In this document: positions 14,985 through 39,056 of the stretch, in pieces
Numbering within the stretch: the first letter of the stretch is position 1
Layout of the letters: every line of letters starts with the position of its first letter
The notes under the pieces: model-generated
Database searches by the model: none
What the model was told of the DNA's origin: nothing
What the model saw: the letters and a program-made list of their open reading frames with translations, nothing else
NCBI GenBank assembly: GCA_033065855.1
Contig: JAVXUO010002267.1
Span: 1 to 64,000, forward strand
Direction of reading: 5' to 3'
From: Escallonia rubra
Taxonomy: Eukaryota > Streptophyta > Magnoliopsida > Escalloniales > Escalloniaceae
DNA: 64,000 nt
Made by a program: the position numbers and the translations under genes

Positions 14985-15713
14985 ATGCCTCTTAGACGCC
15001 ATAATCATAACGCCCATGATCCTCCCAAGCAGCCCACGAATGACGGAGTTACTGAAGCCATTGTACAAGGATTTTAGAATTTGGCGAACTTAATTGCCAC
15101 AGGTAACGGGGGCTGCACCAAAATCAGAATGATGGACAGAATAATGGTGTTAAAACCAGAGATGTGGAGAAATTCAAGAAGTTAGCGCCCGCTTTTAGAG
15201 GGAAACACAATCCAGAGAAGGCTGAAGCGTGGGTGAACCAGAATAAGAAGGTGTTTGACCTTTGGGACACCATGGATGAACAAAAGGTGGCATATGCTGT
15301 TTTCATGTTAGAGGATGAAGCCGACCATTGGTGGAGAATGATCAAGCGCACACAGAGAATCAGTGCCAATCATTCATGACTTGGGAACGATTTAAAGGTA
15401 TTTTCTTTGAGAATTATTTTTCTCAGAATGTAAAGGATCAGAAGGAGGAAGAATTCTTGAAGCTCGTACAGAACGATATGACAGTAGCCCAATATGAGGT
15501 GAAGTTCACCTCATTGTCAAGGTATGCCCCGCATTTAGTTGACACTGAAAATCGCAAAGCAAGAAGGTTCGAGAAAGGATTAAAGCGCGGCATCAAGAAC
15601 AGATTATTGGCTCTGAAGCTTCCAACATATGCCAAGGTGATTGAACGGGCAGAAATTCTAGAGACAGATTATATGGAGTTTCTAAAAGAACAAGAGGAAC
15701 AGAGACTTAAATG
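14985..15713 (+). pseudogene. Ty3/gypsy gag (capsid) gene, frameshifted
   Basis: The frame opens at ATG 14985 and has an early in-frame stop near 15074. It then runs in two overlapping frames: 15164-15379 holds the first half of the retrotransposon gag domain (KFKKLAPAFRGKHNPEKAEA) and 15328-15714 the second half (MTWERFKGIFFENYF, then DMTVAQYEVKFTSLSRYAP). The shift between them falls near 15355. These are characteristic of the capsid-like gag domain of plant gypsy elements. The gene cannot make an intact product as read. Confidence 0.85.
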
Positions 15714-15786
15714 AGACTGTGCAGAAACTTCAGACAAGAACAAAGGTGGTGGTCAGAATAAGAAGAAATCAACTTTACAAGAAAAT

Positions 15787-16257
15787 ATGCAATCGACTCA
15801 AAAGGTTACGAAGGTTTGCGACATCTGCGGCAAGAATCATGGGGATAAGCCCTGCCATCATTTAACAAATTCATGCTTCAACTGTTGTAAGGTGGGGCAT
15901 TATGCTATGGCATGCCCATATCACAAGAAAGAGAAGACTTATAACATTCAAGCTCCGGTTGGAGCTAAACCGTCCATGGGGGACCAGAGGCCGAGAGTAC
16001 AAGGCCGTGCTTATGCTTTGACTGCCAAAGATGCCACAGCTTCTAACGACGTAGTTGCAGGTACAGTTCAGATCGGTTCTTACTCATTTCATACATTGTT
16101 TAACCCTGGGTCCACGCATTCGTTTAGAACCTCTTCTCTTGCGTGTAAGTTGGGTTCCGACCCACGACCTTTAGAATTTGATTTGATGATTGATACCCCG
16201 GTGGGGAAATCTATCTTAGTATTTACAGTGTACAAACCTTGTTTGGTGCACATTGAG
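15787..16257 (+). pseudogene. Gag zinc knuckle and N-terminal part of protease, interrupted
   Basis: A CX2CX4HX4C zinc knuckle, CFNCCKVGHYAMAC, lies about 36 residues into the frame. The aspartic protease region follows, but the expected active-site D-S/T-G is N-P-G (in TLFNPGSTHSF), so the catalytic Asp is lost. At 16258 the frame is broken by the nested LTR. The frame resumes in phase after the insertion at 20532 if one copy of the 5-bp duplication is discounted, showing the gene was still open here when the insertion happened. Confidence 0.85.
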
Positions 16258-17616
16258 TGTAATACCCCTGATTTTTGGGTATTTGTGTGAAGAACAATTA
16301 AAAAAATTATTATGATTGAGTATTGGACTTAGATAAATTATTTAGAGTCCTTTTAGAGAAGAAATTAATATTTAATAGTATTACTGGCTAATGTGATTGA
16401 ATTAGGAAAAAGAGAGAGAATTCGACTTGGATTAGGATTTTAAGTCATATTGTGATTAAATTAGTAATGAGATCTATTAGTTGTATAATAATTACACTAG
16501 GAATAAAGATTTTAGTTGTGTTATAATTACACTAGAAATTGGGACTTCAACTCATATTATAATTACATTAGTAAATTATATAAGGATGATGAAGACATAA
16601 GAGTCTTCGTATTTTTAGAGACAAAGGAGAGGAAAGAGAAAAGAGTCAAGGGTATTCTTTTTGGAATACAAGCAAAAAGGTGGTGATTGATCTAAGATAT
16701 AGAGTCGAGTGCATTCTTTTGGGTATTCAAGAAAAAAGGTGGTGATTGATCCAAGATAGAGAGGAGATTCTTGACATGATATTCCTTACTTTGAGGTAAG
16801 GGTTCTTACACCGTCTTTCCGTGTTATACACGAGATCTATGTGCTATGTTTTGATTCCCAAAAATATATTTGTCTTCGAGCGTATTTTTTTTCATCACGC
16901 TTTTTGTAACGTTACCAATAATCTTATTTTATTGTCTTATAATTTGCATTCAAGATGGTTCCCATGTAATTTATAAAAAAAATTGTATTCGTTTTATCGG
17001 AAGAAATCGTTTATAATTACTTTGTGCTCATGGGTCAGGAATTTCTTTTCTTTCTTGGCCTCCTCTTTCGTGCAATTATTCCCCATCCAGGGGCGGATCT
17101 ACATGGTGACAAGGGGGGGGGGGGGGCTGAAGCACCCCCTGACTTCTGAAAAAAAAAACCAGCTTGGAGTTCCAGCGAAACCAACAAAAAAGCAGTACTC
17201 AATTCAGTTTCTTGTCCTGCCGACATGTTTGCTCACACAAGCTAACAGACAAGGCTTTGGTTAAAAGTAGCTGAGGTACTTTTTTGTAATCTACCAAGAT
17301 CTTCTGATAAATTGAGACCTTTATTTAGGACAGATAGTCTATATACAAATATGCTAGCTTAGAGTTCGAGGGAAACCAACAAAAAACCAATACTCAAGCA
17401 GTTTCTTGTCCTGCCAACATGTTTGCTCTGTTTCCTTCTACATACTATTATGATTTATGACAAGGGGCTTTTACCATGATCTGACATAACCACTATGTGC
17501 AAATATGATCATCACTTGGTACAACAAAGTGAACCGTAGAAACTTGTGAAAACCCAGAAGAAAAAAAGAGGAAATGTAAGGAGCTTGTTAATTGTTTAAG
17601 GTGCCAAATAACATAC

Positions 17617-17842
17617 CATCAGTGTCACCATTAACAGCACTGATGAGCTGCAGGGAGACCTTATTGCCGACAATCTCATCCAAGCAATCATGAGCCGATT
17701 CAGTAGTGTCTTTCAATTTGAAAAGGTTCTTCTTCTTCATCAACACAATTGTTCCCTTGATCCTTCTCTCATCTGTTTCATATCTCATCCTCTTGTTCCT
17801 GTCTTCTTCCTCCATTACCGGAGCCGCAGCTTTACGAGACAT
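17617..17842 (-). pseudogene. Captured first exon of a 9-lipoxygenase (LOX) gene, PLAT domain start
   Basis: Starting at ATG 17842, the frame contains IKGTIVLMKKKNLFKLKDTT and then GNKVSLQLISAVNGD. These are hallmarks of the N-terminal PLAT/LH2 domain of plant cytosolic 9-lipoxygenases, which oxygenate linoleate. It stops being LOX-like after NGDTDG, where a splice donor (GATG|GTATGT, 17617|17616) lies where a first intron would be expected. Everything after that is intron-like, so only exon 1, part of intron 1 and the upstream region were captured. The plus-strand TATATTTATA at 17934-17943 is a TATA box in the minus orientation, about 95 bp before the ATG. Identification by motif memory, quite secure. 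Confidence 0.75.
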
Positions 17843-17933
17843 TTTCTTTACGTTTTTCTCTAAGTACCTAAGTGGCAGGATATGATTAACAAGAAAGTTG
17901 TTTTGATTGTGTGAAGGAGAATGGCTAAGGTTG

Positions 17934-17943
17934 TATATTTATA
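17934..17943 (-). promoter_or_regulatory. TATA box of the captured lipoxygenase promoter
   Basis: Reads TATAAATATA on the minus strand, about 95 bp upstream of the captured LOX start codon. It implies the element took promoter, leader and first exon together. Confidence 0.5.
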
Positions 17944-18120
17944 GGCAGAGATGAATCCTGGTGTTATGGCTGAGAAGCTTCACTTGTTTACAGGGTACTA
18001 GGTTATACTATTACACATGTGCCATTTTACTAAGACTTTGGGTGAAGACTTTGATTATTGAATTGATTTCTAAGGAGAGTCTCCTTTTGAGATGAGTTCT
18101 ACAAACTCTCTAGTCTCTAC

Positions 18121-18441
18121 CTACCAGCTATGAATGTTTGGCACATAATGAAATTCTTCTTCTAAAGTTGTTCTCCCCCAGACAATGAACCACTGGGAAG
18201 TACCCCTCACATTAAGGACTTTAAGCACATATGCCAGGTGCAGTTGTACTTTTATCTGTAAGACCATTATGGTTCTTCCATTTTTCAGCACCCCAAAGTA
18301 GAGATCAACACTTCCTGATTCTTTCTTGAGAACAGACAGCACCCATGAGGTTATCCCATTTTTCCAAGTAATCCACGTGATAATCCTACTTTCCTTGTGA
18401 CAAAATCTAGGACTTCTTTCTTCTTCATCTACACATTGCAA
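18121..18441 (-). pseudogene. Captured fragment resembling an F-box-associated (FBA) domain C-terminus
   Basis: A 106-codon frame. The C-terminal part (VLKNGRTIMVLQIKVQLHLAY to a terminal FHYVPNIHSW) resembles the last blade and tail of F-box-associated domains in plant F-box proteins (SCF ubiquitin ligase adaptors). No F-box is present. The similarity is loose, and it could be a fragment of another beta-propeller-like protein. It lies in the same hAT-like element and on the same strand as the LOX exon. Confidence 0.35.
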
Positions 18442-20531
18442 TTTCTAAACAAGAATTAAATATGAGCTTCATTTTTAGCCACCTTGACTTCACTGTTATC
18501 ACTATATAATCATTATGGTGATCGGTGACAAAAGTGGAGTTCACATGAAAAAATAACTTTAAATAAGCACCTTATTGTTAGGTGTCAATTTTGTAAAACT
18601 GTACAAGCACAATTAGAAGTACTAATGAAGAAAAAAATAGTAATAAAATTGGCAACAAAAGTGAAATATTAAGGTAATGGAAATATCTTAATTTCTCATT
18701 TTCTCTTTTTTTTTCCCTCTCTTTTTTATCAAATTAATACAGGCACATGGAAGTTTAAACCAACACCTGCATTGGTGACTCTAACTGCTTATCATAACTC
18801 CTCATCAGCGGTTGCGACTCTATGAGGTAATACTTTAATTTTAGTTTAATAAGTAAATTTTAGTTTAATATGATAAGTTGTTAACATTTATATTTTAGTT
18901 TAATACGTTAATTTTAGTGTAATATGCTAAAAAATTAATAATACTTTTTGTATGCTTTATAAGTGCACTTGATTTTTAATATTATTTTAATAAAAATTTT
19001 GATAAACTCGATATAATTTTTGCATCCCCTAAAAAAAATTCCTAGTTCTACCCATGCCCCCATCGTAAGGAATTTTATGCTCTTCATGTTCTTTACACGA
19101 TGCTCATCCTTTTCGTGTTCGTTGTGATGTAAATAAATTACCGCGGATTCTGCTATTACATGCTTTTGCCGCACAGTTGCTTATTTTCTCCAATATTGTC
19201 GTACAGTTAATCTGTCAACGCTATCTCTTTGTTCATGGCCTTGTCATGGAAAAAAATATATATGTGGCTGATGACGACAGACAGCAGTCCTTTTTAAAAT
19301 AGTGGAGCCGTTTTTGTTTTTTTTTACAGTCAATCGTCCTTTTTCTTTGTTTTCTCCGGAGAAGTCGTGCTTCACAATTCAGATTCCAAGTTACAAACAA
19401 AGGACATGCCACGTGTCACATTCCGGTGCCTTTTTCTTTTTGAAAGTTTTATTGATCTTTGTGCCATTAAATTTTTATCCGAAAATTTTCTTTTACCGAT
19501 ATCTCACTCATTCGATCTCCGATTCAGCTGATTTTTATTCCGTTGAATTCGTATTTTTGTTCTCTTCGATTTGAGTCTACAATGACTATTTTTGGATTTC
19601 GAATGGATATTATCTATATTTATCAAATTACTTTGTGTGTGATATTTTTATTTGAAAGTCACTTTTAATTATCGTAACTTATTTGTGACGTGTCGGCTGC
19701 GATATTCAACATGGTATAACCGTGATTTGTGATGCTTAATAATAAGCAATTTGTGTATGTGGCACCCACGAGTTTTGGTAAATGTATTTTGATATTTGAC
19801 TTATTGGTTATGTAACCCCCTTTTGGATCGATTTGTTATTCGTTTGTGAATCGATATTCGACTTATTAGTTATTAAACCCTCTTTTGGTCGCTTTTGTTA
19901 TTCGTTTGTAAAATTTGGTTGAGTTATCAATTCATATTTATTGGTTATGTTCGGTAACTCATATTTGTTATTCGTTTTTGGTAACTCTCTTTTGGTCACA
20001 TTAACCATTCGTTTGTGAAATTTGATTGAGTTATCTAACTTCCTATTTATTGGCTCTATTTGATAACTCTAGTTTCGTATTCGTTTTTGGCTCTCTATGT
20101 GTAAGATCTTTTACTGGACAATTCGTGCTCACCCCTTTGTTTTTCGTTTCCTTCCCCTTTCAGGCCAAAAGTAGCACGAAGGGAGAGATATTAGTGCAGC
20201 GGTGGAAATTGCTCTGGTTTCTAATATTGAGAATAGAGCTTATGATTTCTTTAGATGAAATATTGGTTAGTTGATTTATATTCTTTTGGAATTTAGATAT
20301 TTAGTCTAAGAGACTTGTAATAAAGTTTTGAACTATTTTGGAATTAAGATTTTTGAAGGGATTGTATATAAGTATTGGATTATTTTTGGAGTTAAATATT
20401 TGAGATTTCGATAATTGTATTTGTAGTATCCTAGATGCTCTGCTCTGCCTTCATGATAGTTACGTTGTCGACGTATTTGAGTTTTGGTTAAGGACGTGTT
20501 CGGACCCTCGGGTTCGGGGTGTTACATTGAG

Positions 20532-21607
20532 GGTAAAATGTTACCTACTGACCTTATAACTATGGATATTCAGGATTTTGACGTCATTCTCGGCATGGAC
20601 TGGTTGTCTTCCTATCATGCCTCGTTGGATTGCTATGCCAAAGAAGTACATTTTTGCCCGGTCAATCTAAGTTCAAGTATAAGGGTTCTATTTTCATTAC
20701 TTCGTCTTGTCTTATATCTGCCTTGCGGGCTAGACGTTTGCTTCGGAAGGGGTGTCAAGGATACTTGTATAGCTGTTCAGAACTTATCCCATATTCTCGT
20801 CGTTAGCGAATTTTCGGATGTGTTTCTAAAAGAACTCCCTGGTCTTCCTCCAAATCGTGAAATCGAGTTTGTTATAGACCTTATACCAGGAACTGCTCCA
20901 ATTTCTAAGATTCCCTACCGTATGGCTCTGGCCAAGCTCAAAGAACTTAAGGTGCAACTTCAAGGATTGCTCGAGAAAGGCTTTTTCGCCCAAGCGTCTC
21001 TCATTGGGGTGCTCCCGTTTTTTTTTTTGTAAAGAAGAAGGACGCAACGATGAGATTATGCATTGACTATAGAGAATTGAACCGTTTCACAGTTCGTAAT
21101 AAGTATCCTTTATCACGGATTGACGACTTGTTTGACCAACTTCAAGGTGCTGAATATTTCTCCAAATTTGACTTGAGGTCAGGTTACCATCAACTGAAGA
21201 TTAGAAGGGAAGATATATCCAAGACTGCAATATGGACACTATGAGTTCGTAGTAATGCCGTTTGGGTTGACTATTGCACTTGCAGCATTTATGGACCTAA
21301 TGAATCAGGTATTCAAGCGATACTTGGACCAATTCGTCATAGATTTATTGATGACATACTGATTTACTCCAAAACCAAGGAAGAACATGAAGATCATTTA
21401 CGTATGGTGCTACGGATTTTGAGGGAAGAGAAGCTTTATGCCAAGTTCGATAAATGTGAATTTTGGCTTGAGAAAGTTGTGTTTTTAGGGCATGGGGTGT
21501 CTAAAGATGGGATCTTAGTGGATCCATCTAAGTTAGAGGCAGTGTGGAATTGGGAAAGACCCAAAACAGTCAGAGAAGTCCGTAGTTTCCTTGGTTTTCC
21601 TGTAGTG
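20532..21607 (+). pseudogene. Ty3/gypsy protease end and reverse transcriptase, frameshifted and truncated
   Basis: After the insertion the frame resumes with the protease-RT linker (DFDVILGMDWL, then FSDVFLKELPGLPPNREIEF). RT follows in pieces: 21050-21244 contains [20 protein letters not shown] and [15 protein letters not shown]; the YxDD-type box is FIDDILIYS near 21345; then [16 protein letters not shown] in 21404-21607. Frameshifts lie at a poly-T run near 21010, near 21240 and near 21340. The sequence stops in [10 protein letters not shown], just before the RNase H domain, at the junction with TNL-flanking sequence. Dead. Confidence 0.85.
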
Positions 21608-21893
21608 AGAGAGAGATAAAGGGTGACCTGGTGATGCCGAAGGTTGGGTTGTAGCTTCCTTTTTCTGCTTCTTTCTTCCTGGGGGGGAAATCATCTAAAT
21701 GCAGATGTAGTGTATCAGTTCGGAGACACTACGGCCAAGGCTGCTCGTATGGAGCTAGTAAACTGTGATAAGTTCTGGTTTGGTGTACTGAAATTCAACT
21801 CAAAGAATAAAAATGGAGGGAATAGAATAGAAAGAGAGGGAAAGAGAACATAATTTCATTGAGCGAGAAGAAAATTGGTCTTTGATCTCACGG
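21608..21893. other. Displaced 3' flank of TNL copy A
   Basis: From GAGAGAGATAAAGGG to TTTGATCTCAC this segment matches 62094-62390 at most positions and in the same orientation (shared: CTAAATGCAGATGTAGTG, ACACTACGGCCA, AATAAAAATGGAGGGAATAG). At 62 kb the segment lies immediately beyond the 3' end of TNL copy B. Here it is cut off from TNL copy A by the 10-kb composite element. It therefore marks the original neighbourhood of the resistance gene. Confidence 0.8.
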
Positions 21894-21901
21894 ATCCGGA
21901 T

Positions 21902-22052
21902 CCCCTGCTATTGCTAGGGTTACAACAGGGTGTTGTAGCCCCCAGCAACAGCCGTTGGATCGAGTTATTTCGGAGGGAAGGGCTCAGATTAATCCATGTC
22001 ACAGGACACATTAAAGGCTCCTCATTTACCCTGCTGACAAACACTCTCTCTC
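21902..22052 (+). repeat. Left terminal inverted repeat of the 10-kb composite
   Basis: It matches the reverse complement of 31784-31932 over its whole length with about a dozen differences, from CCCCTGCTATTGCTAGGG to GACAAACACTCTCTCT. Confidence 0.85.
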
Positions 22053-22942
22053 CAAACCAACGACCCCATTCACTCTCTCTCCAGCTCCTTTTGCTGGCGG
22101 CAGAACCCGCTCCAGCTTCCGGCGATGACACGGCGACGGCGCATCCGGTGGTGAACCGACCGGAGACGCGAACCGACGATCCACCTTCCATAGAAATGAC
22201 GACGCCAGAACCAACGATCCAACAATCTGAAATCGCAGACCAATTTCGGCTACGACGCCAGCGCCTCCAGGGGACCATTCACTCTCTCGGATCCACAATT
22301 CCTTCAGCCGGCGGCAGAAGCCTCTACACCTCCCGGCGACGGCACATCTGGCGGTGAAACTTCCGACGACGGACCACTGCCCCACCTTCCGAGAGGGGCC
22401 CACGTTCTGAGAGATAAAATACACCGGTACGTTCTTGTACAAACCAGTTTCCCCAACGTTCTGTTATTCGCAAGTTTATACTCTAGCCCTTTGAATCTAT
22501 CACCGGTACGTTCCTCTATAATTCCATCTATATTCTTCATTTTCAATACCAACAATTGCTCAAAACAAATCCATACCTTCCACGTATAACAAACATCTAT
22601 CCTCTATATAGGCACTTTTCTGTGTGTGTGTGTGTGTGTGTATGTATGTGCGCACGCAGTTGAGTGGAAATATGAGAGGAAATCCTTTGGTTTAGAATTT
22701 AGATTGAATCCTGCTTTCCCAGAGTTCCTCATTTTCATGTTTGGATAATTTGATTTGGACTACTGCTCCTGCTGCAGAATTGTTTTCTTGATAAATGCTC
22801 AGCATAAAAAATCATCATTGTGATGGCAATCCGTGATTATAATTCTTATTATAAATATCATCTGCTTCCTTTATGACATTGGATTGATGACGATACCGCA
22901 TCATACACTTTAGAATGATGATTGCTTATTCAACTTTTGTAA

Positions 22943-23055
22943 TACCACTTTGAGGGCAGGTTTGACCTTGTTAAGTTCGTGAGGACAGTTCATGAAGCTG
23001 GCCTATATTTGCATCTAAGAATAGGTCCATATGTTTGTTCTGAATGGAACTATGG
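22943..23055 (+). pseudogene. Captured GH35 beta-galactosidase exon, left arm copy
   Basis: The frame reads [20 protein letters not shown] and continues [16 protein letters not shown]. This is a signature block of plant beta-galactosidases (BGAL, glycoside hydrolase 35), where the usual form is [19 protein letters not shown] donor follows TATGG at 23056, at the known exon end of these genes, and intron-like sequence continues. Only this exon is present; the enzyme's catalytic Glu residues lie in other exons. Compared with the right arm, CSEWNYG has Ser where the family has Ala. Confidence 0.85.
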
Positions 23056-23890
23056 GTCAGTTTTCCTTATTTACCTTCTTTTATTATGCAGCTGCATTTT
23101 CTTGTCTTCCCTGAGATTGTTATTCATCAAGCTAATAGCATTTGACTTCTTAAGGAGCTTCATCTTTCTATTTTTTCTATGTAGGCCAGCTTGGATGACA
23201 ATTTATTGTCAAGTTTGTCTCAAGGATCAACCCGTGCCCAATTCAATGGCAAGAAAGTAATGGGAGAATGTAACGTGCTTGGTTCAAACCATATCTAATA
23301 TGACGGCGAAAGAATACTGGAGACTTCAACGTGCTTTCAAGTCAAACCTCGATGACACTTCAAAGCTATATTTTCAAATGAAAGTTGTTCGTGATACGAC
23401 TTATCTAACATTTTCTATTTTGGAACTCTTGCATGCCTAAAGTATAAATGATTATTTTGTTTTAAATTGATATCCAAGTTGTTGCATGCCTAAACAATGG
23501 GATTATTTTGTTTTAAATGAATATCCAAATTGTTGCATGCCTAAACAGTGGGCAGGAAGTTGTAGAAAGGCACTGGACGGTGGAAGTAAATATATTGAAC
23601 ATTATGAAGATTCTCATTTTTATTAGTTGATTACTTTCTTATTGTAGGAAGTAAATGTACAAAACATTATGAATCTAGGATATCATCAGTAGTATTTATA
23701 AAAACCTATAATAATAATGCACAAGTAAATGCCTAGAAACTATTTGCCATATCTACAGCTTCAGCGGCTCCCCCTCCATCACTCCTCTACAAAGTTCAAT
23801 TAGAGATGGAATCAATGTGCTGCGTATGTGCAAAACTTTATGAATATTCCACACTTAAGCTGGCATACAAGTTCCATAAATTCTCAATAC

Positions 23891-24114
23891 CTTGTAAAAA
23901 TTAACGGCAATATAGTCAGGCCATCGCGCACCGGCTTCTTCATGACAAGTACTCATCATGCTAATTAACGGATCTGAATTTTCCTTACAGGCTTGGCTGA
24001 TGTTTGGGTCACTAGGACATAAGTTCATCAGGACAAGTGACCTTTTTTTTGTACTCATAGGAAATGATTCTTTACGGTTAGGACATGAACCAGCTTTCAT
24101 GCCGCCGTCACCAT
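23891..24114 (-). pseudogene. Captured PI-PLC X-domain protein, downstream exon
   Basis: It reads DGDGGMKAGSCPNRKESF, then LVLMNLCPSDPNISQACKEN and IAVNFYK. These match the C-terminal half of plant PI-PLC X domain-containing proteins, secreted or GPI-type proteins related to bacterial phosphatidylinositol phospholipases. The acceptor CTGCAG|AT (24115|24114) and donor ACAAG|GT (23891|23890) are intact. It joins the upstream exon in frame across the intervening intron. Confidence 0.8.
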
Positions 24115-24236
24115 CTGCAGATTTAGAGTCCAAACCTATTATAGTTCTTTCAAAAACTTTAGCCTCTTTTTTTTTGTTTTCAATATTGTAAATCTACATA
24201 TGAGAAGCAGAAGAAGACATCAGAAATGAAGCTCAC

Positions 24237-24476
24237 ATTGGTTTTCAACCAAATATCTCCACTCATAAGCAATGCCCTCAGAGGACTCCTTCGCAGCTAT
24301 TGATGTAAAAACCACTAAACGCTGATTTTTCTGGACTATATAATCAACCGTAGGCCAGTCTTCACCATTTCTTGGCATACGAGATACTGGAAACCAGAAT
24401 TTCCTTAAGCCAGCAGCGTCAAACTCCTTGGTTAGACCTTTTGGAGATGTAACATAGTCTTCAATGATGATGGTAA
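24237..24476 (-). pseudogene. Captured PI-PLC X-domain protein, upstream exon
   Basis: It reads IIIEDYVTSPKGLTKEFDAA, then FWFPVSRMPRNGEDWPTVD and ending IAYEWRYLVENQ. This is the second part of the PLC-X domain of the same plant family. The donor CAAT|GTGAGC (24237|24236) matches the acceptor of the next exon in phase. The exon's own start is unclear, near 24476. Catalytic His residues of the X domain would lie in exons that were not captured. Confidence 0.8.
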
Positions 24477-24860
24477 TTAGTTTATTATTATTTATGGGTT
24501 TCTTAACTTAGTTCACTAGAAAACTCCAGTTCAATGGGCTGCTTTGGATATCTTATTTGTCAGCTACAACTTGAGATCTTATATCGTGTTGAGGTCATAA
24601 CAACTTCAAAACTCCTTCTTCAAGAGTAATAAAGTTACTATTAACCTTTTCTTTTTTAACGAAGAACTTTAACTTTTTATACAACTAGTAATCTCCTTCA
24701 GTAATAAAGGATATCAACTTCGTTCCGCTTAATCAGGTTAAGAGTGAATTACTGCAAGCTCCTTAAGAAGTCAAATGCTGTTAACTTGATGAATAACAAT
24801 CTCAGGGAAGACGGGAAAATGTAGCTGCATAATAAAAGGGGGTAAATAAGGAAAACTGAC

Positions 24861-24972
24861 CCATAATTCCATTCAGCACAAACATATGGACCTATTCTTA
24901 GATGCACATATAGGCCAGCTTCATGAACAGTCCTCACGAACTTAACGAGGTCAAACCTGCCCTCAAAGTGGT
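24861..24972 (-). pseudogene. Captured GH35 beta-galactosidase exon, right arm copy
   Basis: Inverted copy of the exon at 22943-23055. It reads [18 protein letters not shown], closer to the family consensus than the left copy (Val for Leu, Ala for Ser). The same donor (TATGG|GT, at 24861|24860) is kept. The divergence of the two arms dates the inverted duplication. Confidence 0.85.
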
Positions 24973-25844
24973 TTTACAAAATTTGAATAAGCAGTCATGA
25001 TCCTAAAGTGTACGATGTTATATCGTCATCAATCCAATGTCATAAAGGAAACAAATGATATTTATAATATGAATTATAATCACGGATTGCCACCACAATG
25101 ACGATTTTTTATGCTGGGCATTTATCAAGAAAAAAATTCTGCAGCAGGAGCAGTAGTCCATATCAAATTATCCAAACATGAAAATGAGGAACTCTGGGAA
25201 AGCAGGATTCAATCTAAATTCTAAACCAAAGGATTTCCTCTCATATTTCCACTCAACTGCGCACACACACACACACACAGAGAGAAAAGTGCATATATAG
25301 AGGATAGATGTTTGTTTTATGTGGAAGGTACGGATTTGTTTTGAGCAATTGTTGGTATTGAAAATGAAGAACAGAGATGGAATTATAGTGGAACGTACCG
25401 GTGATAGATTCAAAGGGCTAGATTACAAACTTGCGAATAACAGAACATGGGGGAAACTGGTTTGTACAAGAACGTACCGGTGTATTTTATCTCTCAGAAC
25501 GTGGGCCCCTCTCGGAAGGTGGGGCAGCGGTCCGTCGCCGGAAGTTTCACCACCGGATGTGCCGTCGCCGGGAGGTGTAGGGGCTTCTGCCACCGGCCGA
25601 AGGAATTGTGGATCCGGGAGAGTGAATGGTCCCCTGGAGGCGCCGGCGTCGTCGCCTGAATTGGTCCGCGATTTCAGATTGTTGGTTCCGGCGTCGTCAT
25701 TTCTATGGAAGGTGGATCGTCGGTTAGCGACTCCGACCGATTCACCACCGGATGCGCCGTCGCTGTGTCATCGCCGGAAGCTGGAGCCGGTTCTGCCGCC
25801 GGCAAAAGGAGCTGGGGAGAGAGTGAATGGGGTCGTTGGTTTGC

Positions 25845-25975
25845 AATTTAGTGGTTGTCTAACACCACGTCATCAGCCTATGTGGTGTTAGACTACCACT
25901 AATATCACGCCAAGCGAAGGTGGCAAGTTGTGGGCCGAATGTCCAGCTGGATCTAAATTGTTAACCATGGTTTAT
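25845..25975 (+). repeat. Hairpin segment, copy 1
   Basis: About 130 bp that recurs in inverted orientation at 31644-31775. It contains a stem (25849-25868 with 25883-25902) with a 20-bp arm TAGTGGTTGTCTAACACCAC, a 14-base loop and one mismatch. It ends near TTAACCATGG. It may be an independent MITE-like unit or an inner part of the composite's ancestral end. Confidence 0.8.
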
Positions 25976-26161
25976 AAAGTTAAAATTAAAAATTTCAAAA
26001 AAATTAGAATTTCCCGCCCACCTTTTTTCATCTTTCAGGTTAAAACATTTGAATCCATTTCCAGTTCTTTCTCCTTTCTTTCGTCCCCATTTTATTTCTT
26101 TCTTGTCTCTCTTTCATCAGTCGTTCAACTGGCAATAAACTGGTTTGGAGAAGGTGAGACG

Positions 26162-26251
26162 ATGAAGGGTTCGAATTCCGGAGGGTACTTGGGAGATTGG
26201 ATGTTTAGATTTTCTGGAACATGTTTGAATTTAGGGTTTCCACCGTCCATG
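26162..26251 (+). pseudogene. Unidentified captured first exon
   Basis: A 30-codon frame from ATG 26162 to a strong donor CCATG|GTAAGT (26251|26252), preceded by a pyrimidine-rich leader-like stretch. It looks like the first exon of a plant gene. It starts MKGSNSGGYLGDWMFRF. I do not recognise it. It may belong to the same source locus as the antisense fragment that follows. Confidence 0.35.
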
Positions 26252-26319
26252 GTAAGTACCACTTCGTTTGTGTTACCCTTTTGGTTGTTTAGGTCCTGCA
26301 TCTGAGATCGGATCACCGA

Positions 26320-26545
26320 TGTTTCATGCAAATATGTCTTTTGCAGATTGGGTTGCGCATCTGTTGATCTTCTTCAGCAGGACCATGGCCAGATTCATCG
26401 AAATGTGGACGCCAACCCATGTTCCCTGAATAATATGGTGGTACGGGGTGCATACCAGGAAAAGGGAAACCTTGATATTGAGGAATTTGTTGCACAGGGC
26501 TCTGAAAATTGTACATGTACTGGGGAATCTGGTTCCAGCCACAAT
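26320..26545 (-). pseudogene. Captured antisense fragment with a QYQGFPFPGM motif
   Basis: The minus-strand frame contains QIPQYQGFPFPGMHPVPPYY followed by SGNMGWRPHFDESG. This Pro/Tyr/Gly-rich block resembles low-complexity regions of COP1-interacting-protein-like plant proteins. The match is from memory and uncertain. Read on the plus strand, the same DNA supplies the N-terminal half of the open frame that runs into the NPF fragment, so the two pieces are fused head to tail in opposite senses. Confidence 0.35.
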
Positions 26546-27127
26546 TCTCTTCAAGTCACAACCGGCCACACAATTCTCATCGCGGTTCCAATATATGATC
26601 GAGTATTAGTCCCAATAGCAAGGAAACACTTGGGTCACCCGTCGGGCATAACAACACTTCAAAGAATGGGAGTAGGGATTCTTTACTCCATACTGACCAT
26701 GGTTGTGGCCGCCCTAGTAGAGTGCAAAAGGCTCAGCGTTGCTAAACTTTACGGCGTATTGGACAGGCCAAAATCAACAGTCCCAATGAAGGTCTGGTGG
26801 TTGCTACCTCAATACATGCTTTGTGGGCTCAGTGATGTCTTTACAATTGTGGGGATGCAGGAGCTGTTTTATGACCAAATGCCGGAGAGCATGAGAAGCC
26901 TCGGGGCCGCGGTGTACCTCAGCATTGTGGGAGTGGGAAGCTTCTTGAGCAGTGGCGTTATTTCTCTTGTACAAGTACAAGTGATTAGTTTGAGATGGGG
27001 TGGACATGAATGGCTCGGTGGTGAGAATTTGAATAGGGCACATCTCGATTACTTTTATCGGGTACTGGGGGGGTTGAGTTGTCTGAGTTTGTGCTTTTAT
27101 TTTTGGGTTGCTAAAGGGTTTCGTTGA
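26348..27127 (+). pseudogene. Chimeric frame ending in the C-terminus of an NRT1/PTR family (NPF) transporter
   Basis: A 259-codon frame. From about residue 70 onward it is the C-terminal part of an NPF proton-coupled nitrate/peptide transporter: VPIYDRVLVPIARKHLGHPS, GITTLQRMGVGILYSILTMV, VWWLLPQYMLCGLSDVFTIV, LNRAHLDYFYRVL, with the last few membrane segments. The family is normally about 550-600 residues with 12 segments, so two thirds are missing. The first 70 residues are antisense to another fragment. The frame is open, and an expressed chimera is possible but unproven. No promoter is evident apart from that of the captured leader near 26100. Confidence 0.8.
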
Positions 27128-27129
27128 CA

Positions 27130-27717
27130 AGAAGGTTGACTGGAATGATGATGGGAAAATTTATTGTAAAACTTTATTGTGCTTTTATGTTTGGGTTGCT
27201 ATTCGTTTACTTTTAGTGGAATGACTACTGAAACTTTATTGTAAAACTTTGAGAGCCACGAGCCAAGCTTTGGTAAAGTGCCTTTACATATGCCCTATTT
27301 TTTTGTCCTGTTTTAGTAGGAAGAAAAGAGAAGAAGATGGAAGATGCTAAGTAATTATTCTTCTTACATTTCCCCCACCAATTGCTGCAAACTTGACTAC
27401 TAATACTCTTGAATATGAAAGTCACTAGCAAAAATATCAACACGTTCATCGCAAGGAGCAAATATTGACTAGCAAAATTATCAACACGTTCACTAATTTA
27501 TCTTGTTCACAAATGAAAAGGGAATCCTAATAACCAAAAGTAAAATGCCATAAAAAGAATGACTAAATAACTAATCTTCATTTAGAAGTTTTCAAGTATG
27601 ATAAACTTGGAGTTTCAATGCTTGCGTGACATTCCTTCACGTGATGTTCCTCAATTGGTAAAAAAATTCCTATAAAGGGGAAAAAAAATTAGTCTTTTTT
27701 TTTTTTTTGACGAGAAG
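27130..27717. other. 3' flank of the NPF fragment
   Basis: AT-rich, with repeated short phrases (GGAATGACTACTG / TTTATTGTAAAAC, and CTAGCAAAA-TATCAACACGTTCA twice near 27425 and 27470). Probably the captured 3' untranslated region and internal element sequence. No gene. Confidence 0.4.
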
Positions 27718-29457
27718 TTACACTACAAGAAAATGGGACTTTCCCGACGGACTTTTAGCGACGGACAAGAATCTGTCGCTAAAGGTTACTTTTAGCGACG
27801 GAATAATCCGTCGGTAAAAATCCGTCGCTAAATGTCTTTACCAACGGAACTGTCCATCGGTAAAGACATTTAGCGATGGAGTTTTACCGACAGATTATTA
27901 CCGACGGAAATATCCGTCGCTAATTGTAATTTATGTATTTTTTCACTATTTTTGAATTTTTTTCATAAAAGATAATGTTTAGCGACGGACTTTTACCGAC
28001 AGACACATTCCGTCGGTAAAAGTCTTTATGTTTGAATAAAAGGAGCCCTAACCCTACTCTTCTTTCTAACCAGCCGCACACACATGTTTTCCCTTCTTCT
28101 CTCCCCCTCCCCCTCCTCCTGGCCTCTCTCTCTCACCCTGTACCAATCACCCACGCCCACCTCCCAAGCCACTACCCCAACCCAAGCCCTTCTACTGCAT
28201 CCCCCGAACCCCTCTTCCACATCCTCACCCTCATCCCCCACTCCCGCCTTACTCTTTTTCTCTCTCTCATCCGCTACCCATGCTACCCACCTGTAGGGAA
28301 TTGCTGCGACGTGCTGGCTAAGGCTTCCGCTTTCCAACGTTTTATTCTTTTTTTGCTGATCTTTCAGTAGGGTTTTGATTTGTGGGTTTGTGATTGTGTT
28401 TGTGTGTGGTAAATATGGAGAGATCTTGTGGTTAAGACTTCAAGAATGACAATTGTTGAGTTTTTTCTTTTGGTCATTTTCGAATATCAGCAACTATCAG
28501 TAACTTTTCGTTTGACTGGAATGCAGGTTTGCAGTAGGATTGGTGATGCTCTTTCGGGGAGTGAATGCATTCAAGCATTGCCACTGGTGTCGCTACTTGA
28601 GCTGTGTCCCCACGTCAAAATGGAAGTGTGATGGGATTTAAGCCTTGGATGGGCTTCTCCTCCCCCTCCTCATCTGTAAATGCATAGTTTTAGCTTAGGA
28701 TCTGGATTTGTTTCATTACTTTTCGACATGTTCTTTGGGCATCAAAATAGTGTGTATTTGCTGGACGTTCTTTAATTTTCAAATAGATGTATCTAGCTCA
28801 TCATCCTACTGTTTATTCTCTCTGGATGGCTTGCTTACTGCAGAGTCGAGTTCTAATAGATTGCTTGCTTTGGCAGTTAAGCCAGCTCTAAGCTTATGCT
28901 CGTATACCTTTCGCCTTTGGACATTTTTCTCCCGCAAGGTTTTGGCAGATTGATGCCCGTAATAAAACCTTGAGATAAAAAATTTGAGAAAAGGTATAGG
29001 AGCAAGAGACCTTTCGCAGTGAACCGAAAAATGAAAAGTTCCTTAGTCGTGCCCTTTCGGGGTATTAAACTGGATACGTTCAACCTGTTAGTTTGCTTTT
29101 CAAAAAGTAATTTTGTTCAGTTTGCTTTTCATAAAGCAATTTTGTCCCATACAGTTTCGCTAAAAAGTTGTTTAGCGACGGAATATTCCGTCGCTAAAAT
29201 ATTTAATCCGTCACTAATTCTTCGCTAAAAATATAATTAGCGACGGAATATCCGTCGCTAATGAAAAATAAATCCGTCGGTAAAAATGACATATTTAGCG
29301 ACGGATTTAAAAATTCCGTTGCTAAACTATTAGTGACGGGCTTTTATACGAGGAATTTTTAGCGACGGTGAATCCGTCGCTAATTCTTTTAGCGACGGAT
29401 TTGGGCTTTTAGCGATGGATTTCCCCGTCGCTAAAAGCCTGTTTTCTGGTAGTGTTA
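27718..29457. mobile_element. CACTA (En/Spm) element, non-autonomous, TTA target duplication
   Basis: It starts CACTACAAGAAAATGGG (27721) and ends CTGTTTTCTGGTAGTG (29454), inverted ends typical of CACTA elements. TTA flanks both sides (27718-27720 and 29455-29457), the 3-bp duplication expected. Both subterminal regions are arrays of TTAGCGACGGA / TCCGTCGCTAA in both orientations (27750-28025 and 29165-29440), the class of motif bound by TnpA-like proteins. The 1734-bp length and lack of tnpA/tnpD make it dependent on another element. It is inserted in the 10-kb composite and is therefore younger. Confidence 0.95.
28026..28960 (+). other. Cargo region of the CACTA element (unidentified gene-like sequence)
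   Basis: Between the subterminal arrays lies a leader-like pyrimidine- and CT-rich stretch (28060-28290), an intron-like T-rich region with TGTTTGTGTGTGG, and an exon-like piece near 28525-28630 following GCAG and ending in a stop after VKMEV. It looks like a captured host 5' region, but I recognise no domain. The overlapping frames on both strands here are mutual shadows. Confidence 0.4.
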
Positions 29458-29573
29458 TTAGTAAGGACAAAGTATACCTGTGGGTTAACATCACAAGAGT
29501 TAAGCAAACTGACGAAACTGTTGGATGTCCCCTGAAATAAAGAAACGCATTTTCAGTGACATACTCCGTATTA

Positions 29574-30425
29574 TTATATTAGAAAAAACGTTGTTAAATA
29601 AATTAGAACTTTTATTACCTGACTCAAAAGTGATGTGACATTAGTATTACCAAAACAAGGTACGAACTCATGGTGGAAGATGTTGTCCATTGGCTTAGAA
29701 TAACTATATGACAATTGTTGTGACACTGATGTAGAAGGTACATCAAGGGGAACATCGGGTGTAAAATCTTGACCTACAAGATAAACAAATTTGGTCACTA
29801 TATACAATGTGTATGCAAAAGCACAAAAATATATATCTCAATACATATGAGAGTTACCATCAGTTTCATTTGTAGGAAGTTGGCTAGTTGCTCCTTTCGG
29901 TGTCTTTCTTTTTCGTGCCTTCTCAAGTGTCCCCTAGATCCTATTATAATGTGTTCCTTCAGCCCTCACTCGAGGGGGATCCATAATCGGCAAGCCATCA
30001 ACAGAACGAGGAATATCATTCGCCTCACTAACTGCATCGTCATTTCCACACTCTTCTTCAAGTCTTTTAACTTTTTGTTCAGTCCTTTCCAAATAGGCAA
30101 CAGCATTTTTTGTCGCCTCCTTGCCCCTGGCACTCATTATCATGCTAGCTAATGCTCTCCGCATCAATTTGTTTAGACATAATGTTTTTGCTTCTTTGGG
30201 ACTATTCAGTGGAGTCAAGCCATGAACATAGTCATCCTTTGCAATACGTCGTCTTGCGCCTTTTGTCCATCTTTTCAACACATATTTCTCTGGTATTCTT
30301 TTGGCTTTAACAAAGACATTAAATACCCTTAAAGTATGATGATACAACCCTCAAACAATTCACAAGAACAACTTATCTCATTACCATCAGAGTTAAGAAA
30401 ACCCTTATGCTCTCTTTTACCACCT
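29574..30425 (-). pseudogene. C-terminal fragment of a FAR1-RELATED SEQUENCE (FRS/FHY3-FAR1) protein
   Basis: Read from 30425 downward: ISCSCELFEG (the SWIM zinc-finger region, followed by a one-base shift near 30350), HHTLRVFNVFVKAKRIPEKY, then VLKRWTKGARRR, then the variable acidic C-terminal region and GTLEKARKRKTPKG. This block is typical of plant FAR1/FHY3-type proteins, which are domesticated Mutator-like transposases acting as light-signalling transcription factors. The DNA-binding and transposase core are missing. It is either another captured host fragment or the last trace of the element's own transposase; the close fit to host FRS tails favours the former. Confidence 0.7.
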
Positions 30426-30429
30426 TCAC

Positions 30430-31640
30430 ATTTCAAAAAATAATGACTCATTAGGTGCATGCCCCTTTTCTTTCCTCGTTAGGAGTAACCTAAGGTGCAA
30501 GCCCCTAACATGAACACAGAAAAGTACATCGTCGTAGCTCTTGATACAAATAAGAAGCAACTTAAATTGGTTTTCCTTTATGTTGGCATGAATCTGGTGG
30601 AGAAGTTTCAGCTAGTGTCTGAAAACTGAAATGTATCAGTCAAGTGCCAAGGAGTGTGTGAAACATTGCCTTTTCGAGGTTTCCATACTTCTTAGCAGCC
30701 TTAGGGAAATGGCAAAAAGTGTCATGGGCTAATGTATGGGTGAGCATTTATAGGCAAGTAGCTTACATACATGAATTGAGCCAATCAATATGTGCCCCAC
30801 TTGTTATGCCACAAAGGAATTGACATAAGTCCCGAGCTTTAATTTCCCATTTTCTCAGAAGGAGATTAACTGATAGCTACATCCGGCATTGCCCCACTAG
30901 CTAAACATCCTTCAAGATCCCCGAGCAATGACAACAGGCAAGGAGCTGCCCACATGACACCCACATGGGTTACACATAATATCACCACTACATCTAATGA
31001 TCATATGTTCAATGTCACGCATGCTTTTTTTCAAGAGTACTGAACCAGATAGCAAATCAAAAATCCCTCTCACTCCTGCATAGCTACATTGGCAAATACG
31101 TTCATTAGATAACCGCAGTTGAACTACCTATTAATTAAACTCTATTTTCGAAGTTGGTTATTGAAGAAGCTACGGTAAGATAAATCACCAAGAAACCACT
31201 GGATCATAACCGCATGGCCATTAATGGCGAAGGAAAGGAAGCTCTGGTTGCGTTTCAGCAAATGAGTGATGAGAAAATCATGCCAAACTTATTCTCAAAC
31301 ACACTGGACATTTCTACTTGCAGGGATACTTAGTAGCATGATCTGATTGGGATCTCAGTGAATTCAGCATGAAACATAATTGCAATCTGATGTTAATCAA
31401 ATTTGGAGAAGGAAGTGCAAATGAGATACCTGTCATTACCAAACGCCCGGATGCAGCGGTGGTGCACAGTGATGGCGCAGTGTGGTCTCAGGCGTCGGAT
31501 GATGGCAATTGCAGTGGCGGCGGCGCCGTCGGCCGTCGGAAAGGCAGTTTGGTGGCTGAAGGGCAGAAGGATATTAGGGTTTGACTTTCTGTTTTCTTTT
31601 TTATTTCTCATTTTTTTTCTTTACTTCTTCTGGTCATAGT
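30430..31640. other. Internal composite sequence, no gene recognised
   Basis: Contains CA/AT-mixed sequence and GC-rich frames at 31369-31611 on both strands (Ala- and Arg-rich) that may derive from a captured leader or presequence. I see no domain. Confidence 0.4.
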
Positions 31641-31643
31641 TAA

Positions 31644-31775
31644 CCATGGTTAATAATTTAGATCCAGCTCGACATTCGGCCCACAACTTGCCACCCTCGC
31701 TTAGTTGGCGTGATATTAGTGGTAGTCTAACACCACGTAGGCCGATGACGTGGTGTTAAACAACCACTAAATATT
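31644..31775 (-). repeat. Hairpin segment, copy 2 (inverted)
   Basis: Reverse complement of 25845-25975. The stem TAGTGGTAGTCTAACACCAC pairs with GTGGTGTTAAACAACCACTA across 31717-31769. It lies immediately inside the right terminal repeat. Confidence 0.8.
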
Positions 31776-31783
31776 TTCTCTGC

Positions 31784-31932
31784 AGAGAGAGTGTTTGTCG
31801 GCAGAGTAAATGAGGAGCCTTTAATGTGTCTGGTGACATGGATTAATCTGAGCCCTTCCCTCCAAAATAACTCGATCCAACGGCTGTTGCTGGGGCTACA
31901 GCACCCTGCTGTAACCCTAGCAACAGCAGGGG
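31784..31932 (-). repeat. Right terminal inverted repeat of the 10-kb composite
   Basis: Inverted partner of 21902-22052, ending in GCAACAGCAGGGG. Confidence 0.85.
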
Positions 31933-32045
31933 ATCCAGATCCCTCTTGATCCTGATTCTCAGTGGCTTCTTGACTTGCTGCTGTTGAGCTGGATCCTTTT
32001 CTGTCGTGGCGTCATCATGTTGCCAACTCTGATTCTCTGTATCCT

Positions 32046-33038
32046 CTATTGCCTCCTGCGCTTGAGCCGTAGTAGTGATGGCACATAATTTAGTGCTCTT
32101 TTTAGAAAGGATCTCGCGGGCTCCCCCTTTGAGTTTTCTACTGCCGCCTCGTCACGGGAGTCCGATTCTGAGGCGAAGTGCTCGCTAGATTCCGGACGAT
32201 CGCTATGGTCAGTGGATTCCTGTATATAGTTTGTACAATGGAATATCTTCTCCGGAGTTTTAGGTCTCTCGAACTGTTGAAATTCGTCAGGACCAAAGGG
32301 GTCAGGACCAAAGGCTATTATTTCCAGAGTTGTTGGACCGTCGAACGGTTGAAATTCTTCAGGACCAACAGCCATGGCTAACCAGCCCATTAACAGTTCG
32401 GTATAGAGAATATGGCTTGGTGCGTATCTGGTTGACCGGCCCTCTCTGATGATATGGCTTGGTGCGTATCTGGATGACCAGCCCTCTCTGATGTGTATTC
32501 CGCAAGAACGGATGGTGGGGCGGGGGGTTGGTGGGTTGATTTCTGTTGTGGCAGTGGTGTCTGATGGCCCTGACTCGGAAGCTTCAAGAGGCAGCGGGCT
32601 TTCATTGGAGTTGGTATTTGGTCTTATCATCTGAGAGTGGTAGTTGGATGGGGATACCGTCATCTGATCTTCAACCATAACATCTTTCTTGTATGTCAAA
32701 AGACCACCCCAGAGATGGATCCACAGCTTAGGTTTGATAATATAGACGCAATCACTGATTGTAAGGCATGGGAAATTGCCGTTCCATCCTGTCCATCTTT
32801 TGTATGTCAGGGGGAAGCGCTTCAGACAAATCTTTCCTGCCATGACAGATTTAACGTACGCGAGAGCTTCAGAAAGACTGTTGTCATTAATTAACTCTCT
32901 AATGAAAGTGAGATCCACTCGAAGCCATCCCATGGGGAGACATTTGTGGCAGTCTTGTCTATCGAGTCTCTTCCGGTGAGTTCCTTCCGGATCCATTAAC
33001 TCGCTGCCGAAATGCTCTGGGATGTCTCTTCCAGTTAC
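32046..33038 (-). CDS. TNL copy A exon 5: post-LRR region and disordered tail
   Basis: The exon begins after CATACAG (33039) with VTGRDIPEHFGSEL, the start of the C-JID/post-LRR domain of TNLs, and stays open for 330 codons to the stop at 32046. The second half is a polar, Pro-rich tail with internal duplications: IREGWSSRYAPSHI then IREGRSTRYAPSHI, and PEEFQPFDGP then PDEFQQFERP. It ends with KGEPARSFLKRALNYVPSLL, a basic amphipathic stretch also kept at the end of copy B. Such tails are uncommon among TNLs I know. Intron phase (0) agrees with exon 4. Confidence 0.8.
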   Translation of the reverse strand, partial: VTGRDIPEHFGSELMDPEGTHRKRLDRQDCHKCLPMGWLRVDLTFIRELINDNSLSEALAYVKSVMAGKICLKRFPLTYKRWTGWNGNFPCLTISDCVYIIKPKLWIHLWGGLLTYKKDVMVEDQMTVSPSNYHSQMIRPNTNSNESPLPLEASESGPSDTTATTEINPPTPRPTIRSCGIHIREGWSSRYAPSHIIREGRSTRYAPSHILYTELLMGWLAMAVGPEEFQPFDGPTTLEIIAFGPDPFGPDEFQQFERPKTPEKIFHCTNYIQESTDHSDRPESSEHFASESDSRDEAAVENSKGEPARSFLKRALNYVPSLLRLKRRRQ

Positions 33039-34809: not shown

Positions 34810-36144
34810 CAGATATGTATGTGTATATATATATATCTAAACATATACATTTACATATGTACATAGACATATGTAATTATGTATGTGTGTGTGTGTGTAA
34901 TACATATGTGTATCATGTATATGTGTGTGTGTAGAGGTAGAGAGAGAGAGAGAGAGTAAGAATATCTTTATTAATTCATGAAAAACAAACTCTCCAACAT
35001 TAAATAATTACATATAAAACAAAAATGACTTAAGAGATTTGATAGGAAATTCTAGAAACTATCTTAAACTCATATTTTATCTTTTATAAACTCTTGGAAT
35101 GCAGATTATAGACAATTTGTTTTTTTTTTTTTTTTGATAATGTCCTTAATTTGATCACTTTTAACATTTCAAAACCAGTATATCCAATATACTACGTACA
35201 AACATGAAAACAAAAGCATGCATCTTTGAATAAAAAAAATCACATTTGAGATTATAAAAAGAAGAACAAATTCATATATCTTAAAATATGAAGTAGAATT
35301 AGAACGTTATAACATTTGAAAACAAATCTAGGGAACTTTGTTTTTGTATAAACGGTGCTTTGTCGTCAGAAAGTGCTATAGCAATTTTTTTTTTCTTTCT
35401 TTTACCAAAAAATAAGGTGTGAATCATAGACAAGCATAAGTGTTGAGATATAGACGCTCTCAAGTCGATTGATAACCTTGGTACCGTTAAAGATGAATCC
35501 AACTTGGAAAATGTGTTGGCTAAAAATTTTGGTTAAATTTCACTCAATGGTTTGCTTACTCTAAATCTGCTCACGTTGGTTGAATATGGAAACATACAAT
35601 ATACAAATTCTATACGAGATATACACTAAGAAATTGAAATAAAGCATTATGACATTTGAAAAGAAATGTAAAGAAAGTGTATTTCTACACGATGTTTTAT
35701 CACATTATTTTCTAGCCACAAAATAAGATGTGCACGAGCATGTTATAAACATAAGCGCAATAATAATTACAATAAAAATGTCTCATGCAATATACGCACA
35801 TCGGTGGTCTTTTCTTTTTTCTTTTTTTGTGTATTACATGAACTTCTGATTTTTGTTCCTCCATATATTAATAAGCTCGAATTATCTAAATGCACAAAGG
35901 TAGTGCTTATCTATGTTTCACCATAGGGATTAATTTATTCTTTGAGAAAGTTGTTCACCATTTAAATTAAACGTGACTTTTTTTGATAAACTAACCGTGA
36001 ACATTTAGATTGTGCAATATACTTTATTATGCAATTCAAAGATTAGGGGCACATACATATATATGTATGTATGAATATATGCGTATTTAGATGTATATCC
36101 AGACACAATACCCATACACACACAGATGGAGAAAAAGAGGGAAC
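33039..36144 (-). other. TNL copy A intron 4 with microsatellites
   Basis: A 3.1-kb intron. It holds AT-rich sequence, including a member of the TCTAAAACTCTACCTAAT repeat family near 33450, a C21 homopolymer run near 34408, a 400-bp compound (CA/TG/TA)n microsatellite at about 34510-34935 with nested palindromes such as CATACACGTACGTGTATG, and a short GA run near 34938. Long open frames on both strands in the microsatellite are artefacts of the dinucleotide periodicity. Around 34100-34400 lie remnants (CCGTTACATTTGGCAGCGGA; GTTACATAATGTAACGGACGG) related to the Pack-MULE end motifs at 46-48 kb. Confidence 0.7.
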
Positions 36145-37170: not shown

Positions 37171-37348
37171 CTGTTCAAACAATGAAGAAATGATATTTAT
37201 CCTATATCACTACTATGCATTAAGAGATATGAAAGCATGCATAGAAACATAAGTCAGGTTAATAGCGCAATGATGAGACTCATTCATTTGTTAGATAATC
37301 TCAGGTTCGAAACGATTGAAAAGAAACATAAGATCGAAGAGATTGTAC

Positions 37349-37624
37349 CTTTATTCCAGGCCAAAATTTTCGAAGGTGGCTAAACTGCATTTCAAGCCCA
37401 ACAAGTTTTGTCGCTTGGAAACTTGCTGGTAAAGATTTTGAAGGGTATTCATGCCATTGAAGCCAACGTAACCCATCTGGAAGATATTCAACGCCTTGAG
37501 AAAGCTTGACATTACGAAATTTGAGTAGCCTTAGCTTGTCCATCCTTTGTAAGGTGTCACTGCTGAAGTCTAGTTCCGTTGGCTCTGGAAAGTCCAATTG
37601 TAAGCCTTCAACTGCCTTTGTCCC
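37349..37624 (-). CDS. TNL copy A exon 3: NB-LRR linker and first LRR
   Basis: 92 codons, bounded by TTATTAG|GGG (37625|37624) and AAAG|GTACAA (37349|37348). It contains GTKAVEGLQLDFPEPTELDF, then MDKLRLLKFRNV and LRWLQWHEYPSKSLPASF, the conserved block that precedes the LRR array in TNLs. The frame is intact. Copy B has the matching exon at the window's right edge. Confidence 0.88.
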
Positions 37625-37788
37625 CTAATAACCAACCGCGCAGGAGCGAAAATTCATGATTATTGTAATGTTAAACCCCAAAAACGACTTACTGTAATAA
37701 TGCTTTTTGTACAAATTAGAAAGACTTTTATTGTCATGTAAACAGAAAAACAGATCCTAAGCATTTTATACAAAACTTTGATTCTCAT

Positions 37789-38891: not shown

Positions 38892-39056
38892 CTGCAAGTG
38901 GAAAGGATGTAAGTTTGCATAAACATTTGCTAGTTTTCTAGGCATGTTGTGGTGGAGCGGCAAAATTTATCCTTATTATATCTCTCATCCATAATTCGGT
39001 TAGATGCCATATCAATATTTTGATGCAGAGAGATTGGCATTTGAATTGGTGCTTAC
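38892..39056 (-). other. TNL copy A intron 1
   Basis: 165-bp intron with GTAAGC donor and CTTGCAG acceptor, between TIR and NB-ARC exons, the usual position. Confidence 0.85.

Follow-up and report, generated by a model that had tools for sequence, protein, structure and literature searches.

Captured beta-galactosidase sequence in an inverted repeat of Escallonia rubra: very probably the extended ends of a Pack-MULE

Pack-MULEs are Mutator-like elements (MULEs) with captured gene fragments, and acquired sequence can enter their extended terminal inverted repeats (TIRs), as described in passages of a study that deal with duplicated TIRs (PMC3310237). For Mu killer of maize, a hairpin of several kb was proposed; in the sections of that account that concern silencing, silencing plants have short antisense transcripts and not the expected read-through hairpin, and a hairpin is still allowed (PMC3440606). 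Here we describe a 64,000-nucleotide stretch from Escallonia rubra (GCA_033065855.1, contig JAVXUO010002267.1, positions 1-64,000, forward strand), hereafter the window, that contains an inverted repeat of beta-galactosidase (BGAL) gene sequence. Because of the outer TIRs, target site duplications (TSDs) and transposase domains of its relatives, this repeat very probably forms the inner portion of TIRs that a non-autonomous FAR1-type MULE at 21892-31942 has extended by capture. The question at stake is whether captured fragments silence their source genes; with likely donors identified here, mapping of small RNAs to specific loci could answer it.

The two arms, at 22053-23160 and 24756-25843, are reverse complements that form a single BLAST match of 1108 columns (92.2% identity with gaps counted, E = 0.0) around a 1.6-kb loop (23161-24755). 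This bears out the inverted repeat of about 1.1 kb that an earlier note on this DNA had claimed, with the right arm beginning at 24756. The earlier note had also proposed an estimate of arm divergence: identity is 94.0% in ungapped columns, the differences comprising 42 transitions and 23 transversions (65 sites) plus indels, and a local alignment that includes about 17 bases beyond the outer ends has 1034 of 1104 ungapped columns identical and a Kimura two-parameter (K2P) distance of 0.067. Perfect runs of at least 21 nt between the arms number 20. Plant substitution rates range from 1.3e-8 to 7e-9 per site and year, at which this distance would mean roughly 2.6-4.8 million years; the repeat is therefore probably old. 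Divergence between the arms has reached about 6%, and nothing indicates that they are maintained identical.

Relatives were sought in the window's own genome (566 Mb, 3222 contigs). The left arm has at least 60 matches there (the best 40 of 123 candidates were scored, so that counts are lower bounds), and arm positions 1-320 belong to a dispersed family with several members in inverted pairs. The window block directly outside the left arm (21892-22052, + strand, GGATCCGGATCCCCTGC...) is the outer TIR of four long relatives, L009 (C1863), L010 (C411), L011 (C334) and L012 (C1835), and these elements, like L018-L026, have all or some of it at their ends. In L009 and L012 the sequence of the arm starts directly after this outer TIR; in L010 and L011 up to about 40 bp lie between the two. 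Aligned TIRs of L009, L010, L011 and L012 measure 1176, 943, 1553 and 1037 bp, with identities of 94.1, 98.4, 99.7 and 92.8%, respectively; the window TIR is about 1.27 kb long (21892-23160). Its core (22053-22372, + strand) is common to the dispersed family and contains an internal tandem copy (about 22066-22131 and 22275-22345). All 13 relatives (L009-L012 and L018-L026) were examined for TSDs: 9-10-bp TSDs are exact in six of the 13 and have one mismatch in three. Transposase domains were scanned for in two relatives and found in both, in broken frames: L009 encodes a MULE transposase (PF10551, E 1.5e-25) and SWIM, and L012 encodes FAR1 (PF03101, E 3.2e-19) and SWIM.

The sister element L009 shares the layout of the window element: read in reverse, the two are colinear, and both TIRs of L009 contain the BGAL capture. 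Its inner capture boundary lies at arm position 1044, compared with 1108 in the window. L009 keeps the transposase region and the window copy is without it: six-frame translation of the whole 1.6-kb loop gave no transposase frame. The left part of the loop (23158-23494, + strand) is a MULE-internal remnant that also occurs in L009, L010 and L012, and its counterpart adjoins the transposase frames in L009 and L012. The right arm (24756-25843, - strand) is the inner right TIR, and the outer right TIR (31781-31942, - strand; 93% identical to 21892-22054 inverted) is displaced from it by a second MULE (25846-31780) that interrupts the right TIR. The element carries fragments of BGAL and of a gene at C1870 between its termini, and the likely donors of both are located, as expected of a Pack-MULE. 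The earlier description of a repeat inside a Pack-MULE thus holds as far as the Pack-MULE is concerned, but the arms are themselves the extended TIRs and there is no separate cassette within. L011 (686-4228 at C334) deserves attention in its own right: it is 3.5 kb long, with 1553-bp TIRs that are 99.7% identical, a loop of about 0.44 kb and an exact 10-bp TSD. It is probably younger than the window copy and a better fold-back, and possibly an even better object for testing whether a fragment silences its source.

What the MULE interrupts is the 3' region of one copy of a TNL resistance gene. Flank A (21604-21891, left of the MULE) is 85% identical to 62095-62387, and flank D (31966-32200, right of the MULE) is the 3' end of a TNL gene copy, which ties both outer MULE ends to one insertion site. 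The target region (62095-62785) is uninterrupted in the window and at five further places. Several observations weigh against this account of the element and of its arms. No TSD of the window MULE is seen: the nine bases adjoining each end do not match by eye, and the top match of the TSD script falls within the TIR itself. At the MULE site, 167 bp of TNL target between flanks A and D are absent. Among the relatives, TSDs are not convincing in four of 13 (two of these have an exact 8-mer), and with random right ends 0-5 of 60 draws were equally good for the nine counted relatives. For the four BGAL-bearing arms of the window element and L009, each of two branching orders has one informative site in its favor, so the longer BGAL stretch on the right is the sole guide to the direction of copying. 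Separately, a search for a larger TIR and 9-bp TSD pair spanning the arms gave none, versus two in a direct-repeat control. A model in which the repeat is a TSD-less insertion whose empty site is copied at 31.6-31.9 kb was rejected because the left part of that site is the family outer TIR and its right part is the TIR of another MULE.

Each arm holds two segments of BGAL sequence. In the left arm, segment 1 (22441-22685, + strand, about 84% identical to BGAL genes at C3178 and C441) comprises an upstream region with a TATA-like string (22604), a leader, a start codon (22672) and about four codons (MRGN); segment 2 (22679-23160, + strand) comprises the end of intron 2, exon 3 and the start of intron 3. 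The arm thereby joins two donor stretches (arm positions 389-633 and 627-1108) that overlap by 7 bp in the arm and stand 490-745 bp apart in BGAL genes. On the right side only, BGAL-derived sequence continues about 190 bp into the loop (24564-24755, - strand; L014 aligns to element positions 2512-3185). From its position and TATA-like string, segment 1 may be a promoter; such strings stand at 22604 and 25300, one per arm and facing inward, and a similar pattern occurs in two of the four BGAL genes tested. Exon 3 is 113 bp long, and the presence of the same GH35 exon in each arm, stated in the earlier note, is confirmed by PF01301 in the left copy (22943-23055, + strand, E 1.2e-12) and in the right copy (24861-24973, - strand, E 7.8e-14). 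The best PDB match of the right copy is 3w5f, a beta-galactosidase; this copy keeps the canonical 17-residue string of BGAL genes and the left has L and S at two places. The claim that the exon retains its intron edges is half right, because the splice donor GT is kept but the acceptor AG is lost: the BGAL genes have TTTTGTAG where both window arms and both L009 arms have TTTTGTAA.

The search for donors that the earlier note had called for points to a BGAL cluster with two genes at C3178 and three at C441, which are 83-86% identical to the arm. Some of these may be haplotype copies, as L014 and L015 differ by 0.5%. An exon-1 check of L013-L016 found exon 1 open from ATG in L015 and L016, an ATG with a shortened exon 1 in L013, and ACG with a stop in L014. 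Searching the genome with the exon region returned 16 places: the four MULE arms, L010 (which has one GH35 exon, inside the element), the five genes of the cluster and six matches that are more remote. MULE arms differ by 8-12% from BGAL genes and by 2-6% from each other; being closer to each other than to the genes, they point to a capture older than the split of the two elements.

Two alternatives would remove the transposon origin of the arms altogether. The repeat could be a false palindrome created in assembly, a worry that the earlier note had raised, and inverted duplications are a known type of artefact; however, 65 aligned sites and also indels distinguish the arms, the same layout recurs at C1863, and long TIRs are present in three more elements, so that this explanation is extremely improbable. 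An inverted duplication made by break repair at the site, with no transposon involved, would account for the lack of a visible TSD and for the missing 167 bp of target, but on either side the element ends in a TIR terminus of the family, 13 relatives lie elsewhere, and the sister copy has the same internal order. We regard such a duplication as highly improbable. Nor does the captured exon seem likely to serve in new coding transcripts, as an exon-shuffling Pack-MULE would have it: the exon 3 frame is open in both arms and the donor splice site is kept, yet none of the four arms retains the acceptor AG, two conserved residues are altered in the left copy, and the frame from the captured start codon ends after seven codons (ATGAGAGGAAATCCTTTGGTTTAG), which leaves this reading very unlikely.

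A working hairpin locus, whose small interfering RNAs would silence BGAL genes by way of exon 3 in the mRNA and possibly also by way of segment 1 at the promoter, has several features in its favor. The 3.8-kb stretch is predicted to fold with 1038 of 1108 left-arm bases paired with the right-arm end (-2278 kcal/mol), so that the folding check suggested in the earlier note yields a long predicted double-stranded RNA (dsRNA), and the 20 perfect arm-arm runs and the inward TATA-like strings fit the same picture. Homology of the arms to BGAL genes, also claimed in that note, is borne out by long perfect stretches of up to 62 nt. Perfect 21-mers shared with the five BGAL genes number 70, 70, 70, 68 and 84 for the left arm and 91, 107, 111, 83 and 77 for the right arm; within the exon-3 region no perfect run exceeds 62 nt, a length that the right arm reaches with both L014 and L015. 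With L015, the right arm also has a 37-nt perfect run in that region and perfect runs of 35 and 32 nt upstream. Outside the BGAL cluster, L027 shares six and L028 one 21-mer, with the right arm only. In the window element, private changes are more frequent in the arms (32/1152) than in the loop (9/739; p = 0.023), which is a hint at most; arms and loop were polarised with different outgroups. Against a working locus, the excess is post hoc and missing in the sister L009 (18/1152 versus 16/739, p = 0.38), the C-to-T type accounts for only 12 of the 32 changes, the arms are about 6% diverged without sign of upkeep, the TATA-like pattern is limited to two of the four BGAL genes tested, and the 16 exon matches include only two elements that carry the exon once in each arm. 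Comparison of the two arms shows C-T differences at 18/94 CG, 13/92 CHG and 11/274 CHH sites (p versus CHH 1.5e-5 and 0.0023), which suggest that the element was methylated, as transposons are. Among six other window pairs, a CHG trend appears in two (outer-TIR/nested-TIR pieces, p 0.058; flank A, p 0.04) and is lacking in four (the TNL LRR pair, the 40-kb tandem, the 48/53-kb repeat and flank D), with the TNL LRR pair and the 48/53-kb repeat biased at CG. A CG/CHG bias of this kind fits general transposon methylation and is expected of a silenced transposon anyway, so it is not specific to hairpin action. A present role as a silenced transposon is most likely; that the locus works as a silencing hairpin is unlikely, and an effect on BGAL genes is no more than a possibility.

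Captures in this lineage extend beyond BGAL. The five long elements have four different captured contents, BGAL included, and the inner TIR sequences of L009-L012 do not cross-match. Both TIRs of L012 contain CobW-domain sequence (1339-1753 and its inverse), which also occurs at C32 (L024, on one side) and at C2214; the likely source is C2214:95116-95532 (94%). The TIR content of L010 is a repeat, taken as two stretches with an 11-bp overlap. L011 TIRs are a patchwork of a stretch from places adjoining the repeat of L010, of C2218 (97%) and of C1199 (93%), and the C1199 piece is present as a single, internal copy in L010. To explain the window element, one MULE end may have acquired BGAL DNA, and the second arm could have arisen at the opposite end as a copy of the first, made while a break or gap was being repaired. 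Without the transposase region that L009 keeps, the window copy is a compact fold-back with a 1.6-kb loop. Transcription that starts at TIR promoters, at captured BGAL promoters or at both ends might yield dsRNA and lead to small-RNA silencing. An apparent series runs from the single, internal exon of L010 through the exon in both TIRs of L009 to the compact fold-back of the window, and may reflect an order in time. In its broadest form, the proposal is that this MULE lineage repeatedly copies captured host DNA into both TIRs, making inverted repeats of host genes and hence a self-matched silencing cassette. This is unlikely. In the window copy the leader-exon fusion faces inward in both arms; if the proposal is true, dsRNA could be made where the donor is active, and that dsRNA could act on the donor family at promoter and mRNA.

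Other parts of the window complete the picture. The loop holds a captured two-exon fragment (23739-24482, - strand) that is 94% identical to C1870:668245-668983. The earlier note had called it PI-PLC-X; its captured nature and source stand, but the name is putative and has no supporting match in Pfam (scanned over pieces of the loop), NCBIfam or PDB. The nested MULE (25846-31780, TIRs 25846-25972 and 31642-31780) splits the right TIR of the GH35 MULE, and its ends belong to a high-copy family, the C family, with terminus GAGAAAATATTTAGTGG and at least 63 matches (best 40 of 403 candidates scored). Of five C-family copies checked, three have exact 9-bp TSDs, one has a TSD with one mismatch and one has none. 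In the window, the right terminus of the nested MULE is followed by TGCAGAGAG, and its left terminus is shortened and preceded by TGCA, which would fit a small deletion across one TSD copy, as expected. The nested MULE carries an NPF/PTR2 gene fragment at about 26543-27127 (PTR2, Pfam, E 1.9e-27) and a frame at 29934-30350 that has no Pfam match above the cut-off and that we take to be FAR1-like. Directly left of the MULE target, 15319-21619 contains Gypsy-type retroelement fragments (gag, RVP_2, RVT_1). TNL pieces (TIR, NB-ARC and LRR domains) occur at 36043-39592 and 62932-63618 (- strand), with LRR parts 88-89% alike, and at least five other places hold a further copy of the TNL 3' region. 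Elsewhere in the window are an open 759-aa hAT transposase frame (566-2845, - strand; Dimer_Tnp_hAT E 1.4e-22, hAT-like RNase-H E 1e-12) and a tandem array (39823-41513) with a period of about 230 bp and matches 88-95% alike.

We met no BGAL-carrying MULE hairpin in literature searches at the level of titles and abstract openings. In our judgment the window copy adds a member to a kind already known, Pack-MULEs whose TIRs are extended by capture. Foldback-type elements such as Galileo (PMC3573991) resemble it in their very long, internally repetitive TIRs relative to a short middle, but belong to another superfamily, whereas the relatives here encode MULE/FAR1 domains. Mu killer, the nearest precedent for silencing, is likewise an internally deleted MULE derivative with an inverted duplication; its repeat is of a transposase gene and silences MuDR (PMC3440606), whereas the element described here has lost its transposase and repeats host BGAL DNA. 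There is also a likeness to Pack-MULEs with capture-extended or tandem long TIRs, which share long TIRs, a 9-bp TSD family and captured gene fragments with the window element, and an internal tandem copy in the TIR core is found here too (Ferguson & Jiang 2012, PMC3310237). As TIR acquisition is already described in passages of that study, the habit of this lineage is a recurring case of a known process. Compared with the elements in those passages, the Escallonia MULEs differ in that the upstream leader of the donor, with its start codon, stands together with an exon in both TIRs, and in that several members of one lineage carry different captured DNA in their TIRs.

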